From positions 1 to 23,772 of IMG/VR virus record IMGVR_UViG_3300031576_000618: a stretch of 23,772 bases of DNA; one strand, 5' to 3'. Numbering within the stretch: the first letter of the stretch is position 1; the number at the start of each line of letters is the position of its first letter. The notes below the pieces were generated by a model, which worked only from the letters and a program-made list of their open reading frames with translations, did not search any database and was not told where the DNA came from. A program made the translations under genes and the position numbers. This document shows positions 2,429 through 17,515 of this stretch, piece after piece. This stretch comes from a virus.

Positions 2429-4189
2429 TCATGCGAATTGAACCCCTCTGAGCTCGGCCGCCACCTTGGCACCGAGGCCGCGCAACGGTTCTCTCACCGG
2501 AGGCAACTCCTCCAGCGTCATGCCCGGCTCAGGGACCGGCTCGGCGTCCTCGAACGACGGGAGTACGACGCACCGGCAGTTGGAATTAAAGATGCCATTT
2601 GCTACAATCCATCCGGTTATAGTCTGGAGATCATAGACATGACCCGAAAATTGGAACTCCCGAATCTCGGCGATCTTGTCCAACGCTACCAAGCCGGTGC
2701 CTCGCTTAAGAAGCTGGCCGATGAGATCGGCATCAGTCGGACGGCACTCGGTCGCGCACTCGTAACGACTGGCATTGAGCTTAGAAGCCAGTCCGATGCG
2801 GAGCGGCTGAAATGGAAGGCCATCAAACGACGCGGTCGTGCGGCCATCGTCCGCCAGACGGCTAAGGCGTGGCAAGCCAGGACGGGAAACCGAGACCCGA
2901 TTGAACGCCAGATGGCCCGAGCCAGAACTCGATTTCTTCGTATCACCCACCGCGGCTACTTCGAGGACGATTTGGCTCGTAGACTTAGATCCGTTGGCAT
3001 ATGCATCGCTCAACAGTTCCCCCATGGGCCCTACAATATCGACATCGCCGTTGAGAAACTCGCCGTCGCCATAGAAATCTCCAACTCCAGCAGCTTGCCG
3101 ATGAGCCCCAAATGGAGAAAGCGCACTAAATATATCCTCGATAGTGGCTGGTCGCTCATACATATCATTGCTGCTAGATGCGTTTTCGACTGTCGAACCA
3201 TGGCAGAGCAAATTGTCTCCCTTGCTAAGATTCCGCGCGGCCACGAATCCAGACGCGGTCAGTATTGGGTGTTGCGCGGTGACGGCAAGATGCCTCCCAG
3301 ATGCGGTGATGACCTCGATAGCGGGACCGTAGTAAACAGCCCTGGTCGCGCCAACGATTAGACCCTCGACCATACTCCCTGGAAGAAGACAGTTGATCGT
3401 CTCGGCCGGAGAGTCTGCCCCTGGATCTCGCGGGAACATGAGCTCCGCATCCCCCACCTGAAAAGGCTCATCGACAGGCACGGTCTGCAAGTGCGCTTCC
3501 TCATGCGTCGGCCGCGTGCGAGAATCGAGGACCGCGACCCACTGCTTCTTGAGCCCGCGCGTCCGCGTCGCCATGTCGTTGAGGCCCGCCATCTGCGCCT
3601 GGCCCATGATGCCCAACATCTCGGTCCTGGCGATGGTCTCCATGCGGGAGTAGCCCTTATCGAACTCCTCGGCCAGGTCACGCGCGACCTCGGATACCGA
3701 GCGACCACTGATGACGCCCCGGTTGATAATGTCGTTCGCGCGCCCGAGTTGGCGCGCGCTCAAGCTGGTGATTAGGTCGGCCGAGCGATCCGTCGCGTTT
3801 AGCAAGAGCTCCCGGCTGATCCTCAACTTCGGCGGCGGGTAGCCCTGAGTGGCGACCGTCTTGTCGATGAACGTACTGCCCAGTTCCGCGAACTCGGACT
3901 GCGAGTCCTTCAACAGGCGTTGCGCCGCACCCTCGAAGTCGCGGAGTTCGCGTGCCAGCAGGTTCTTGATCGCGGCCGCCTGTTGGCGCGAGAACGAACC
4001 CGTGGGTAGGCGCACGAGCCTGCGCTCGACATCGGCGGTGGCCTGGCGTAGGAGGTCGATCGCGGCATCCACCTTATCGCGCTCTAGTCGCGCGGTGCCC
4101 GCGATGAGGTCGTGGATCTGGCGGGCGAAAGCGCGGCGCTCCGCCGGGGTCAGCCGGCGTCGCGCCTCCAGCAGGGTCTGGTAGATCAC
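2429..4189 (-). CDS. Mu F-like (SPP1 gp7-type) minor head protein interrupted by an intein
   Basis: 586-codon frame from a GTG at 4189 that overlaps the portal stop codon (GTGA). The exteins, residues 1-266 and 538-586, join into a 315-residue minor capsid protein needed for head morphogenesis. The N-terminal half is helical. The signature region starts near residue 183 (METIARTEMLGIMGQAQM), continues through a DSRTRPTHEEAH motif at about 222-233, and ends AETIN followed by CRCVVLPSF at 538-546, the classic phage head morphogenesis fingerprint. The intein (residues 267-537) sits exactly between the Asn and the Cys of that N-C-R-C motif. Being directly downstream of the portal is the usual family position. 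Splicing must restore the signature, otherwise the head protein would carry 271 extra residues. Confidence 0.93.
   Translation of the reverse strand: MIYQTLLEARRRLTPAERRAFARQIHDLIAGTARLERDKVDAAIDLLRQATADVERRLVRLPTGSFSRQQAAAIKNLLARELRDFEGAAQRLLKDSQSEFAELGSTFIDKTVATQGYPPPKLRISRELLLNATDRSADLITSLSARQLGRANDIINRGVISGRSVSEVARDLAEEFDKGYSRMETIARTEMLGIMGQAQMAGLNDMATRTRGLKKQWVAVLDSRTRPTHEEAHLQTVPVDEPFQVGDAELMFPRDPGADSPAETINCLLPGSMVEGLIVGATRAVYYGPAIEVITASGRHLAVTAQHPILTASGFVAARNLSKGDNLLCHGSTVENASSSNDMYERPATIEDIFSALSPFGAHRQAAGVGDFYGDGEFLNGDVDIVGPMGELLSDAYANGSKSTSQIVLEVAAVGDTKKSSSGSGHLAFNRVSVSRPGLPRLSRLADDGRTTASFDGLPFQPLRIGLASKLNASRYECATECRPTDADLIGQLLKRGTGLVALDKIAEIREFQFSGHVYDLQTITGWIVANGIFNSNCRCVVLPSFEDAEPVPEPGMTLEELPPVREPLRGLGAKVAAELRGVQFA
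2580..2608 (+). promoter_or_regulatory. Candidate promoter for the antisense endonuclease
   Basis: TTGGAA at 2580-2585, a 17-base spacer and TACAAT at 2603-2608 give a plausible sigma70 promoter on the plus strand. A transcript would start near 2615 and reach GGAGA at 2626-2630 and the ATG at 2639. The element lies at the intein's C-terminal coding edge, so it would travel with the intein. The -35 matches consensus at only four of six positions. Confidence 0.4.
2639..3361 (+). CDS. Antisense putative homing endonuclease (HTH plus Vsr/DUF559-like nuclease)
   Basis: 240 residues, ATG at 2639 with GGAGA eight bases upstream, TAG at 3359-3361, wholly inside the intein but on the opposite strand. 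Residues about 10-48 form a helix-turn-helix (LVQRYQAGASLKKLADEIGI followed by SRTALGRAL), then a basic linker. Residues 105-180 look like a PD-(D/E)XK-type Vsr/DUF559 core: Y-F-E-D-D-L at 107-112, GI at 120-121, PYNIDIAVEKLAVAIEI at 131-147 with D135 and E146, and RTKYILDSGWSLIHI at 162-176. The usual Lys or His after the second acidic residue is not evident (EISNSSS), so activity is uncertain. The expected job is cutting intein-free copies of the head gene to spread the intein; that role is inferred. It is the only convincing plus-strand gene here. It could be a fortuitous antisense frame, but the family-like sequence over most of its length argues against that. Confidence 0.8.
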   Translation: MTRKLELPNLGDLVQRYQAGASLKKLADEIGISRTALGRALVTTGIELRSQSDAERLKWKAIKRRGRAAIVRQTAKAWQARTGNRDPIERQMARARTRFLRITHRGYFEDDLARRLRSVGICIAQQFPHGPYNIDIAVEKLAVAIEISNSSSLPMSPKWRKRTKYILDSGWSLIHIIAARCVFDCRTMAEQIVSLAKIPRGHESRRGQYWVLRGDGKMPPRCGDDLDSGTVVNSPGRAND

Positions 4190-5757
4190 CTGGACGGGCT
4201 CCCGGCCGTGGCCGCGAATGCGGGCGCGGGCATGGGGGTGGGCGTTGGGGAATGGGCGGGCATCGAGGCGGCCGCGGGTTGGTTGGGCGCCGGGCTCTTT
4301 GGAGCAGGACGAATCGAGCGGTAGACCTCGCCCTCCACGCCATCGGCTTTGGTCGCGCGCGCGGCGGCCTGGGCGGCCTGGGCGGCCGAGGACTCAGCGT
4401 CCGTCATGGGCTTGACCTCGACGCCGAGCTCCGTAGCCTGGGATGCCCACAACTTGATCGCGTCCTCACGGCGGGCGAACCCGGCGTCAACCGCGGCGAT
4501 CAGCGCGTCGGTCAGGCTGACCAGGGCCCCGGCCGCGTCCTTGACGGCCCGGGGGCTGATCTCCGATGGCTTGATCTCGAACTCGCGGTTTACGTCCGCT
4601 GGGAGTGTCCCGTACAGAATCGCCTGGTCGATCTGGAAATCGACGAGCGTGCTCAGGACCTCCACCCAGTATGCCTGGCGACGCTTCAACTTCCGGAAGA
4701 TCGGCGTCCCCATCTCGATCGAGGCGGCGCGGTTCACGTCCCCGCCCTGGCCGAACCAGTGCTCGGGGATTCCTGCTGTGCCCAGGATCAGCATCTTGAC
4801 CATGCGACCCATTTCCTCGACTTCTGCACTGTTGATCTTCGGTGCGAGTGCTTCCCACTTTTCCTTTTCGTCGTGGACGCGGAAGCCACCTGACTTGGGG
4901 GGGTTTTGCGCGAGCTCCTGCGCGCGCTTCTTCACCACGCCATCGCCGCCGCCAGTGATCGTGATTTCGTAGAGATGCGCGTTGAGGAACACGATGCGCT
5001 CCAGCGCGTGGAACAGGAACTGGTCGAAGGCGTCGATCCAGTCGGCTTGCCGATAAATGTCGCTAATGCCCTGCACGGTGTACGTCAGTTTGTTGACCGG
5101 GAAATAGAATACGTCGCCGGACAGCATCCCGAAATCCTTGGCGTTCGGGTTCTGGTCCTGGGGTGAGATCACTTTCCAGGTTCCCGGTCCGCTGCCTACC
5201 CCAATCACGACTTCCACAGAGTACGCGCGCCCCGCGCGGTCCTTGTCGGGCACGATCTTAGTCACCCACGCCGGATCGACAGGCGAGAGCTTGACGTCCC
5301 CGTTCACCTTGTTGACGAAGGGCTTGACCATCCAGGTGCCCATCAGCCCGAGCTCCTGCGCGCGCTCGAACATGAGCATGTCCATCGCGTTGTCCGGGTC
5401 GTCCCAAAATCGGTCGATGCGTTCCTGGACCCGCGGGTCCTTTGCCGTGACTGTCACCCCGTCGCCGACAACGAAATCTGTGAACAACTCGATGATCCGA
5501 TAGGCAACGGGATTGTTCTGCCAGAGATAGTGCGCGATCGACATCTGGCGTTGCCACTCGACATGCGTGAGCTCCTTCTCGCTCACGGCACTCAGGCGCC
5601 GGAATCCGGTCTGGCCCTCACTGTCCACGGTGACGCCGTAGGGGATCGCCTCGCGCGTGCCCAGCACGTAGCCCACCGCCTCGCGGACGCGCCCGAGGAG
5701 TGACCGGGTCGGCGTCTTGGGCGCGGTGGTGGCCTGCTCGTCGGGATTGCCGGTCAT
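4186..5757 (-). CDS. Phage portal protein
   Basis: 523 residues, ATG at 5757. Portals form the dodecameric ring at the head vertex through which terminase pumps DNA and to which the tail attaches. The sequence has a portal-like layout: an N-terminal segment before residue 70, then LWQNNPVAYRIIELFTDFVV near 80-97, central VDPAWVTKIV and DVFYFPVNKL stretches, and a helical stem region with GTAGIPEHWFGQGGDVNRAA about residue 329-348. The C-terminus is a Pro/Ala-rich tail. Length is typical. The ATG shares its A with the stop of the nuclease-like gene upstream (TGATG), and its own TGA overlaps the GTG of the minor head gene, so the three are translationally linked. Confidence 0.9.
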   Translation of the reverse strand: MTGNPDEQATTAPKTPTRSLLGRVREAVGYVLGTREAIPYGVTVDSEGQTGFRRLSAVSEKELTHVEWQRQMSIAHYLWQNNPVAYRIIELFTDFVVGDGVTVTAKDPRVQERIDRFWDDPDNAMDMLMFERAQELGLMGTWMVKPFVNKVNGDVKLSPVDPAWVTKIVPDKDRAGRAYSVEVVIGVGSGPGTWKVISPQDQNPNAKDFGMLSGDVFYFPVNKLTYTVQGISDIYRQADWIDAFDQFLFHALERIVFLNAHLYEITITGGGDGVVKKRAQELAQNPPKSGGFRVHDEKEKWEALAPKINSAEVEEMGRMVKMLILGTAGIPEHWFGQGGDVNRAASIEMGTPIFRKLKRRQAYWVEVLSTLVDFQIDQAILYGTLPADVNREFEIKPSEISPRAVKDAAGALVSLTDALIAAVDAGFARREDAIKLWASQATELGVEVKPMTDAESSAAQAAQAAARATKADGVEGEVYRSIRPAPKSPAPNQPAAASMPAHSPTPTPMPAPAFAATAGSPSR

Positions 5758-6116
5758 CAGATGCGTTTGCCCCCTGCGTAAGGCTGGGCGAGCCCGTAGC
5801 GGATAAGTTCCTCGTTCAGGGACTCGCGCGGATCTGCCAGAGTCGCCCCCTCGCGGAGTACGGTGGCCAGCATGCGCCCGAACTTCTCGACCCGGTCGCG
5901 TTCCGTGCGCACGATGAGTCGGCGGCCCTGCGTCCAGGTCTCGACGAAACGCACGGCCTCCGCGGCTTTGTCGGCCTCGGGGCCATGACGCTCCGGCGTA
6001 TTGATCCCGACTAGGCGGAGGCGCTTGGTCACTCGGACGTAGAAACCAAGGTCTAACTCAAAATCCGCGGTGTCACCATCGACAACCTTCAGTATCCGCC
6101 CCTCGTACTCGTACAT
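5757..6116 (-). CDS. Staphylococcal nuclease-like (thermonuclease, SNase) protein
   Basis: 119 residues from the ATG at 6116. The SNase fold is clear: VVDGDT at residues 11-16, RLRLVGINTPE at 32-42 and VEKFGRMLATV at 76-86, corresponding to the Ca-binding acidic pair, the catalytic Arg and Glu, and the second catalytic Arg. The usual Asp of IDTPE is Asn here (N39), a tolerated variant in some relatives. The family hydrolyses DNA or RNA phosphodiester bonds. No signal peptide is visible from this start, so it probably acts inside the cell, for example in host DNA breakdown or trimming. It is wedged between a small membrane protein and the portal, and its stop shares a base with the portal start. 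Confidence 0.85.
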   Translation of the reverse strand: MYEYEGRILKVVDGDTADFELDLGFYVRVTKRLRLVGINTPERHGPEADKAAEAVRFVETWTQGRRLIVRTERDRVEKFGRMLATVLREGATLADPRESLNEELIRYGLAQPYAGGKRI

Positions 6117-6124
6117 GGCCGTCG

Positions 6125-6343
6125 TCAGATCTCCGAACCGGGTGGCAGTCGCTGTCCCCATAGCAAGTGCCCGCATACGACCCCGAGTGCGAACGGGATG
6201 ACGGGATGCCGACGTGCGTAGAACATAGTGATCTCGCTGATGGTGTCGCCCGGGGTCGGCTCGATCACCACCCAGATGTCCCAGGCGATGAGCGCGAGGA
6301 TGATTGATACGAGGATGCCAATAGTCGCCTTCCGGGTGCTCAT
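6125..6343 (-). CDS. Small two-TM membrane protein, holin-like candidate
   Basis: 72 residues, ATG at 6343 with GGGAG ten bases upstream. Two hydrophobic segments are visible: about residues 8-27 (IGILVSIILALIAWDIWVVI) and about 48-62 (VIPFALGVVCGHLLW), separated by a polar loop (EPTPGDTISEITMFYARRHP). That size and topology suit a class II holin or another small inner-membrane phage protein. No endolysin is recognisable next to it, so the lysis role is only a suggestion. A possible promoter lies 40 bases upstream. Confidence 0.75.
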   Translation of the reverse strand: MSTRKATIGILVSIILALIAWDIWVVIEPTPGDTISEITMFYARRHPVIPFALGVVCGHLLWGQRLPPGSEI

Positions 6344-6381
6344 GCGCTATCGGCTCCCGCGGCGCCCATGTTGGCACGCGC

Positions 6382-6410
6382 ATTGTACCACGCTTTTGCG
6401 GAAATCGCCA
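6382..6410 (-). promoter_or_regulatory. Possible extended -10 promoter
   Basis: On the minus strand TGG precedes TACAAT (the -10 occupies 6382-6387), an extended -10 arrangement, followed by GCGC. The -35 region (6405-6410, TGGCGA) is poor. It lies in the 87-base gap upstream of the two-TM protein and could boost the SNase-portal-head genes. The TACAATGCGC string also occurs in the strong promoter at 16645-16673. Confidence 0.4.
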
Positions 6411-15502: not shown

Positions 15503-16479
15503 TTTGCCGCGAACTTGTCGTAGTGCTCGTAGCCGCGGCCGTGGTCGGATGCGGCTCCGGCCGGTTGGTTGTTCGCCTGCGGGGGCGGCGGTGCATCGCT
15601 CTCCCATCGTCGCTGGTTCAGCCAAGTCGATGGGTACGGGATAAATTGTGGGTCTTGCCATTGCGAACTCAGCTTGTGGGAGGCAAGAGACTGCATAATC
15701 GCCTGCTCGGTTTCGGGGGTCGGGTGGATTTTCCCCCACGCCTTCTGTGCCATGAGCTTCGAATCCTTCCGCGGGTAGGCGGCCCAAAAGAGTGCGAACC
15801 CGTTATTCGGTACGGCTCCGGCATGGGGCGGGTACAAATCGGGATCGGGATCGGGATCGGGATCGGGATCGGGATCGGGATCGGGATCGGGATCGGGTAC
15901 GGCTACGGCTACGGTAGGGGTACATCCGGCAGACAATGTCCGGACAACGGCGGACGCATCGGTATTACCGTCTAAGGACGGCGGATTTTTTGGCGATTCG
16001 GGATCGACCTTGTTACATTTCGGGATATCCCGATTCCTTCCCGATTCCTTCCCGATTCTTCCCGATTCTTCCCGATTCGTTGTCAACAGAATGTCACATC
16101 CTTCCCGATTCGAGATGCGTTTCGCCCGCTTCGCCTCCCGATCCAGCCGCTTATTTACTACTTCGCCAGCCCGCTCAACCCACCCATGGAGCACAAATCC
16201 ATCCATGTATCCGCTCTGCCGCAGGGCCGCAATCAGGGCGCCGGGTGTGCGCTTCCAGCGCGCGGCGCGTTCGATGCCGGACTCCCCCCAAGGTTCGAGG
16301 CTCGCATTCCGCCAGGCGTTTTTCAGCGCGAAGTGCCAGAGCCGGTGGAGGATGCCGGCCACGAAAGTCCGTACCTCGTCCTCATCAAGCACACCCTTGA
16401 ATACCGGAGCCAAGATCTCGACCATGCGATCGGTCTTGAAGTGATCCCACAATTCCTCATGGCTCTCAATCCACGGCAT
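15499..16479 (-). CDS. Replication initiator-like protein (candidate origin inside the gene)
   Basis: 326 residues, ATG 16479 with AGAGGT five bases upstream. The N-terminal 110 residues are helical and may form a DNA-binding domain. Residues 125-215 are a low-complexity linker carrying nine Pro-Asp pairs from a hexanucleotide repeat. Residues 228-292 (FWAAYPRKDSKLMAQKAWGK ... FIPYPSTWLNQRRWE) match a C-terminal domain common in phage replication proteins. Gene order, initiator then helicase loader, parallels lambda O-P. DNA repeats at 16029-16111 and 15841-15894 lie inside the linker-coding part, as the lambda origin lies inside O. Initiator activity is inferred. Confidence 0.78.
   Translation of the reverse strand: MPWIESHEELWDHFKTDRMVEILAPVFKGVLDEDEVRTFVAGILHRLWHFALKNAWRNASLEPWGESGIERAARWKRTPGALIAALRQSGYMDGFVLHGWVERAGEVVNKRLDREAKRAKRISNREGCDILLTTNREESGRIGKESGRNRDIPKCNKVDPESPKNPPSLDGNTDASAVVRTLSAGCTPTVAVAVPDPDPDPDPDPDPDPDPDPDLYPPHAGAVPNNGFALFWAAYPRKDSKLMAQKAWGKIHPTPETEQAIMQSLASHKLSSQWQDPQFIPYPSTWLNQRRWESDAPPPPQANNQPAGAASDHGRGYEHYDKFAAK
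15841..15894. repeat. (GGGATC)9 hexanucleotide microsatellite
   Basis: Nine perfect tandem copies of GGGATC on the plus strand, followed by a GGGTAC variant and GGCTAC units. Read on the coding strand it gives alternating Pro and Asp. It also places nine GATC sites six bases apart, a very dense cluster of potential Dam sites next to the iteron-like repeats. Confidence 0.95.
16029..16111. repeat. Iteron-like CCCGATTC repeats
   Basis: Plus-strand CCCGATTC occurs at 16029, 16040, 16051, 16061, 16071 and 16104 (start positions). Spacings are 11, 11, 10, 10 and 33 bases, all near whole helical turns. Because 10 and 11 are not multiples of three, the repeats are conserved as DNA and not as a repeated peptide. 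Location inside the initiator-like gene suggests binding sites for that protein and a replication origin. Confidence 0.7.

Positions 16480-16714: not shown

Positions 16715-17515
<801 letters not shown>

Follow-up and report, generated by a model that had tools for sequence, protein, structure and literature searches.

Can the endonuclease of a mobile intein be encoded on the strand opposite the intein itself, in the same stretch of codons? The question is raised by a locus in IMG/VR virus record IMGVR_UViG_3300031576_000618, of which the whole 23,772-nt stretch (the window) was analyzed and supplies the coordinates given below. A MuF-like minor head (head morphogenesis) gene lies on the minus strand at 4189-2429, intein included (Pfam Phage_Mu_F E=1.2e-14, with matches to PHROG head proteins), and its exteins occupy 4189-3392 and 2578-2432. 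An earlier note had claimed that this minus-strand gene holds an intein at 3391-2579, that a 240-residue helix-turn-helix (HTH) and Vsr/DUF559-like protein with its own ATG and Shine-Dalgarno sequence is encoded on the plus strand inside it, and that the endonuclease has moved to the complementary strand. The first claim held on motifs and Pfam Intein_splicing, the second held on Pfam and coordinates, and the third is supported, the finding proving larger than what was claimed. We consider it very likely that we are dealing with a mobile intein that codes on both strands, its nuclease lying on the opposite one; its splicing, cleavage, separate transcription, and homing are inferred, and there is no biochemical or RNA evidence for them.

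The intein (271 aa, minus strand, 3391-2579) comprises residues 267-537 of the MuF ORF (CLLPG ... TAQHPIL ... GHVYDLQT ... GIFNSN^C) and carries class-1-type residues, namely Cys1 in block A (3389-3391), the TxxH motif of block B as T38-A-Q-H41 (3269-3280), GHVYDL in block F, and a terminal Ser-Asn before Cys+1, with Asn271 and Cys+1 forming the C-terminal splice junction at 2576-2581. In a set of 121 non-redundant complete inteins, C1, T38, H41, and N271 are invariant (121/121). Pfam Intein_splicing was matched by 63/63 intein members, and a PDB profile search with the intein gave matches to inteins. In the AlphaFold2 model, the Hint halves are mostly at pLDDT >90, and the top Foldseek matches of this model are all inteins, with a probability of 1.00 to the GyrA/RecA inteins. 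The linker, at about residues 130-215 (2747-3004, minus strand; opposite nuclease residues 37-122), is predicted to be mostly disordered (pLDDT mostly <50). By its residues, its Hint fold, and the intein-free alleles found in relatives, the insert meets the criteria for a class 1 Hint intein; splicing activity itself is inferred.

Three other identities for the insert were rejected. For an intein with an in-frame homing endonuclease domain, no nuclease family was found in the sense frame of the 63 inteins searched, and the linker is disordered. A fractured-gene split intein is at odds with a host gene and intein that form a single open frame (4189-2429), and a self-splicing RNA element (group I intron) with an insert that is an ORF bearing Hint residues, a rejection with no RNA family search behind it. 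One could also suppose that the nuclease is real and mobile and that the sense insert no longer splices, being retained in the head protein by read-through. The predicted disorder of the linker and the dominance of the nuclease frame over constraint in the center of the element speak for this reading. Against it stand the four invariant splicing residues, the presence of Cys+1 in every complete case, the Hint fold with its uniform Intein_splicing matches, and the sense-frame constraint kept in the block A/B region, and we regard loss of splicing as very unlikely.

On the plus strand, an antisense homing-endonuclease-like gene (240 aa and a TAG stop, 2639-3361) lies fully within the intein borders and runs codon-for-codon opposite the intein: from the coordinates, nuclease residue r is exactly opposite intein residue 252-r, and the codons are reverse complements. 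It begins with ATG, with GGAG 9 nt upstream. An HTH occupies residues 12-56 (2672-2806; Pfam HTH_58 E=1.9e-5; AlphaFold2 helices 10-18, 23-30, and 34-43), and a Vsr-like/DUF559-type nuclease core occupies residues 108-192 (2960-3214; Pfam MTES_1575 REase E=2.7e-6), with core residues E109, Y132, N133, D135, E146, and R162. AlphaFold2 with 64 relatives modeled the nuclease at a pLDDT of 90.4, and Pfam nuclease matches were obtained in 53/64 members. An HMM profile search of the PDB matched 3r3p (I-Bth0305I) at 6.1e-5, and the top three Foldseek hits were 3r3p_B, 3r3p_A (I-Bth0305I), and Vsr 1cw0 (probability 0.97-0.99), with weak E-values (0.045-0.22). Of the EDxHD motif, aligned to the core, E109 is found in 114/121 and D135 and E146 in 121/121; the motif H and D were not assigned. 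We conclude from profile and fold that the core is homologous to the Vsr-like (EDxHD/I-Bth0305I) homing endonucleases, with the reservation that the Foldseek E-values are weak and that site-specific cleavage is inferred. Opposite the core, the intein (about residues 80-120, with the motif DFHGDG) is confidently modeled, and there both strands appear, in these predictions, to encode folded structure.

An objection to this reading is that the antisense frame is no gene and merely a by-product, left by codon bias together with the conservation of the intein. In its favor, a high GC content helps antisense frames to remain open, as they do in about 14-16% of synonymous shuffles, and the C-terminal YxVIRGxG motif of the nuclease lies opposite intein block B and is partly forced by it. 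Across the 121 inteins, however, the median open fraction of the intein is 95% in the codon-opposite frame, whereas the other two antisense registers are broken, with a median longest open stretch of 22-31%. In 1000 synonymous shuffles of the window's intein, the 240 codons stayed open in 14%, yet the nuclease-profile score reached at most 156 bits against the real 289.7 bits. The window is one of 14 training sequences of the profile, so the independent test was made on 105 sequences outside the training set. Shuffling synonymous codons under a constant intein protein lowered the median nuclease score from 219 to 73 bits, and the real sequence exceeded all 20 shuffles in 105/105; under a constant nuclease protein, the intein score fell from 206 to 97 bits, the real sequence again lying above its shuffles in 105/105.

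Substitution patterns bear on the same point. When 14 independent sequence pairs are compared over the nuclease-core region, 192/83/339 differences fall at positions 1/2/3 of the nuclease codons, and nuclease-synonymous, intein-nonsynonymous changes occur at 2.34 times the expectation; the N-extein control gives the reversed pattern (498/113/174) expected of an ordinary head gene, and substitution classes in the block A/B region retain sense-frame constraint. Nuclease residues Y132, N133, D135, and E146 are invariant in 121/121 while the intein residues opposite them alternate (V/I, V/I, V/I, and F/L), and R162 is conserved in 120/121; in turn, the nuclease-frame residues opposite the invariant intein C1, T38, H41, and N271 vary. 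Antisense-frame conservation thus goes far beyond what the intein frame forces, and it is very likely that both proteins are under purifying selection, the nuclease frame being the more constrained in the middle of the element. With the by-product reading refuted by the shuffle test and further opposed by the Pfam nuclease matches, the confident AlphaFold2 model, and the independent start, Shine-Dalgarno, and promoter signals described below, we hold it to be all but excluded. Two outcomes that would have refuted the earlier note, an antisense conservation no greater than the intein compels and an absence of nuclease or HTH similarity, were therefore not met: the conservation far exceeds that level by shuffles, substitution classes, and invariant residues, and the similarity was found by Pfam, PDB profile, and fold.

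The signals for expression of the nuclease are written across codons of the intein. Its ATG (2639-2641, plus strand) is the complement of the CAT codon of block F His251 on the minus strand. In the family, this block-F His codon is CAT (giving ATG) in 77 cases and CAC (giving GTG) in 13, against 864:1209 at other His codons (p=5e-17), and in variants in which the His lies 1-4 residues earlier, the antisense start in most shifts along with it. The Shine-Dalgarno-like GGAG (2626-2629, plus strand) lies opposite Leu-Gln of the block F VYDLQ; the Leu of VY[DN]L[QE] is encoded by CTC, the codon that creates this GGAG upstream of the nuclease start, in 75/93 against a background of about 28% (p=5e-25). 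A sigma-70-like promoter candidate, TTGGAA-17-TACAAT with TG before the -10 element, is situated within the C-terminal intein codons (2580-2608, plus strand). In a simple-consensus scan that held the amino acids constant, the region upstream of the nuclease scored, class-wide, 1.33 above random codon choice as a promoter (z 15). Five of six other antisense segments, taken as controls, score about zero or negative; the exception, intein codons 100-135, scores +0.69 (z 9.5), an excess that might come from the conserved TAYAAY codons of YN. These start, Shine-Dalgarno, and promoter-like signals are stronger than the intein protein alone would compel, and transcription is inferred from them. The claim of the earlier note that intein and nuclease are expressed separately is supported by these signals only, without RNA data.

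To learn how widely this layout is shared, we turned to relatives. A tblastn search of phage records with the antisense protein returned 50 records at E<=0.01, those listed being annotated as head, capsid, capsid-protease, or hypothetical proteins (Gordonia, Pseudomonas, Vibrio, Salmonella, Idiomarinaceae, Mycobacterium, Cronobacter, and others), and in 18 fetched stretches the annotated head/capsid gene lies on the strand opposite the nuclease. Salmonella phage PK2 (locus L021, 1411-2220, plus strand) is the only fetched record of its kind, the nuclease strand being annotated there, as hypothetical protein XRA40007.1. A scan of IMG/VR with the nuclease as a single protein gave no match; narrower sub-alignments succeeded, three of them yielding 136, 317, and 18 confirmed relatives, from which at most 80 loci each were taken, in overlapping sets. 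GTDB genomes contributed only 3 further loci. Six-frame profile classification of the 202 loci retrieved by way of the nuclease placed the intein on the opposite strand, in codon-opposite register, in all 202, and no free-standing relative of the nuclease was seen among them. C1 is kept in 196/202 and the terminal N with Cys+1 in 196/202, the rest being mostly cut by the contig or locus end; the Asn and Cys+1 junction is present in all 196 loci whose sequence reaches it.

These loci are not a random sample, as nuclease searches cannot return inteins that lack a nuclease. To avoid selecting on the nuclease, 80 loci were chosen on the intein, and 80/80 share the layout and register, with the nuclease intact in 78, split by one stop in 2, and absent in 0; these 80 are the loci closest to the window and match the block-F pattern. 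The antisense frame, which the earlier note had allowed might be broken in homologous inteins, is thus almost never so (2/80). In the two exceptions (L227 and L238), one stop codon breaks the antisense nuclease and the intein frame is intact, and they are likely stages of decay. Inteins of Klebsiella, Haemophilus/Aggregatibacter (Aaphi23), and Vibrio phages seemed at first to lack the nuclease; these candidates were rejected, the nuclease being present and beyond the reach of BLAST. In Rhodococcus phage REQ3 (L206, 1134-2912, plus strand), the intein has no obvious Cys1 and a shortened nuclease matches only from profile position 68, that is, without the HTH. The element is not confined to MuF genes: the same element occurs in a deoxycytidylate-deaminase-like gene of Virus Rctr197k. 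Among loci with non-MuF hosts, the gene in L016 (616-1968) is dCMP/cytidine deaminase-like (PF00383 2.9e-10), and that in L077 has no Pfam match and was taken by eye for a possible glycosyltransferase.

Mobility was approached through intein-free alleles, sought by queries in which the two flanks were joined, in relatives among Gordonia, P. aeruginosa, and Salmonella phages and not in the window's own virus. In Gordonia, 50 of 60 listed records are contiguous and 10 have an 825-bp insert. Among the listed P. aeruginosa phages, 23 records are contiguous at 95-98% identity and 14 match at 100% up to the junction and carry the insert; phages of the vB_Pae_CF177c type (with the intein) and phi297/JBD44 (without it) form natural pairs in this species. 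Both intein-bearing and intein-free states are also present in Salmonella phages. Between Gordonia phages Vivi2 and Keitabear, head-protein identity is 99.3% on the N side and 95.6% on the C side, against only 35% for the inteins. We read presence or absence at exact sites, together with intein replacement in >95%-identical host genes, as footprints of homing, which is itself inferred. The claim of mobility in the earlier note accordingly draws its support from relatives in which the intein is missing or has been replaced, and not from a homing assay.

We propose that the head-gene strand encodes a protein that, judged by its conserved splicing residues and fold, would excise itself from the MuF head protein, and that the opposite strand encodes an HTH and Vsr-like endonuclease that would be translated from its own start and Shine-Dalgarno sequence and is probably transcribed from its own promoter near the C-terminal end of the intein, the signals being shown and the transcript inferred. 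Most likely, the nuclease would cut intein-free MuF alleles of co-infecting phages near the codons of the N^C splice site, and repair from the intein-bearing copy would insert the whole element. Cleavage and copying are proposed because of the intein-free alleles, the replacement of inteins, and the relationship of the nuclease to I-Bth0305I; the dual conservation, predicted folds, signals, presence/absence polymorphism, and replacement are shown. A rival hypothesis is that the nuclease is real but is maintained chiefly for harming competitor phages without the intein, or for regulation, with homing secondary or absent. The intact frames in 78/80 suggest stronger upkeep than a simple homing cycle with frequent decay, and HTH domains could serve in regulation. 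However, presence/absence at exact sites and intein replacement in near-identical host genes argue against this hypothesis, as does a closest solved relative that is a homing endonuclease. We judge it unlikely, while noting that harm to intein-free competitors and homing are compatible. Under the homing model that we prefer, the two-strand layout would allow mobility to be expressed without the late head gene.

A different overlap was observed in terminase genes with intein motifs from Gordonia phage Clown (L288, 2122-3063, plus strand) and Synechococcus phage S-EIVl (L290, 1288-2280, plus strand), which are overlapped on the same strand, in the +1 frame, by a zinc-finger and HNH nuclease. HNH_3 was matched in Clown (E=4.4e-6), and the two overprinted nucleases are about 33% alike and in the same relative frame. 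Inferred from sequence alone, this would be a second way to overprint a nuclease on an intein. In Mycobacterium phage Mantra (L291, 1606-2298, plus strand), a related HNH-like frame lies over a DNA methyltransferase gene in the +2 frame, and no clear intein was seen. Elsewhere in the window, a DNA methylase gene (PF01555 2.7e-29; minus strand, 17611-16715) contains 12.7 GCA repeats (17207-17244), read as a run of 12 cysteines and possibly a slippage site; ten exact ATCGGG repeats (15838-15897) give a Pro-Asp dipeptide run in a minus-strand ORF (16479-15499); and a staphylococcal-nuclease-like protein (5757-6383; SNase 2.5e-7) adjoins the portal gene.

A bolder reading, which we think probable, is that overprinting a nuclease on intein codons is a general phage strategy with two or more classes: one antisense, obligate, and of long standing, whose Vsr-like nuclease lies codon-opposite the inteins of MuF and a few further genes, and at least one more, whose HNH nuclease lies in the +1 frame of terminase inteins. 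If this is true, the antisense class is a natural case in which complementary codons encode two enzymes of unrelated fold along almost all of their length, and in which the promoter, Shine-Dalgarno sequence, and start codon of the nuclease are written into the splicing motifs of the intein. The textbook homing intein, a single polypeptide of two domains, would here become a pair of proteins encoded on opposite strands of one stretch of DNA. Long antisense gene overlap is a matter of old debate, both for phage genomes and for models of early coding. Hundreds of viruses conserve the two-strand double coding described here, and its 121 non-redundant cases offer a large, conserved, and testable set of such overlaps. 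The nuclease sits inside the head gene of at least dozens of sequenced phages, almost always unannotated; it may explain exclusion or recombination between related phages, and it is a fresh source of phage inteins and specific nucleases.

Inteins and Vsr-like homing endonucleases are already known, as are antisense nuclease genes in group I introns (PMC9548176). The earlier note had claimed that no described intein has this layout, and none was found in the open-access literature searched. That search, which covered few subscription papers, found no description of an antisense, overlapping, or reverse-strand nuclease in an intein; on this negative alone, the architecture appears undescribed, each of its components, antisense intron nucleases included, being known. 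Homing inteins with an in-frame endonuclease (PI-SceI, TliVMA; PMC8966425) share with the present element a Hint splicing domain, insertion in an essential gene, and a site-specific nuclease expected to drive homing. Their nuclease, however, is an in-frame domain of the same polypeptide, whereas here it is a separate opposite-strand protein that overlaps the splicing blocks and the linker. The I-Bth0305I/Vsr-like (EDxHD) phage homing endonucleases (PDB ID: 3r3p; PMC3943268) have the same nuclease core by profile and fold, likewise paired with separate DNA-binding modules, but I-Bth0305I was described among group I intron homing endonucleases, and the present nuclease was found only antisense inside inteins. 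In the split-intein "fractured genes" of Dassa et al. 2009, gene and intein are reportedly split, with a Vsr-like endonuclease ORF in the break; there too an intein is linked with such an endonuclease as a separate ORF, but the present intein is unbroken, and the nuclease is read from the complementary strand of its own codons. The antisense homing endonuclease genes of nuclear group I introns (PMC9548176) resemble it in that the nuclease is encoded antisense to both the host gene and the splicing element and has expression signals of its own; they differ in that a ribozyme does the splicing, with the nuclease gene inserted in a peripheral stem, and in that they lack the overlap of protein codons on protein codons seen here.
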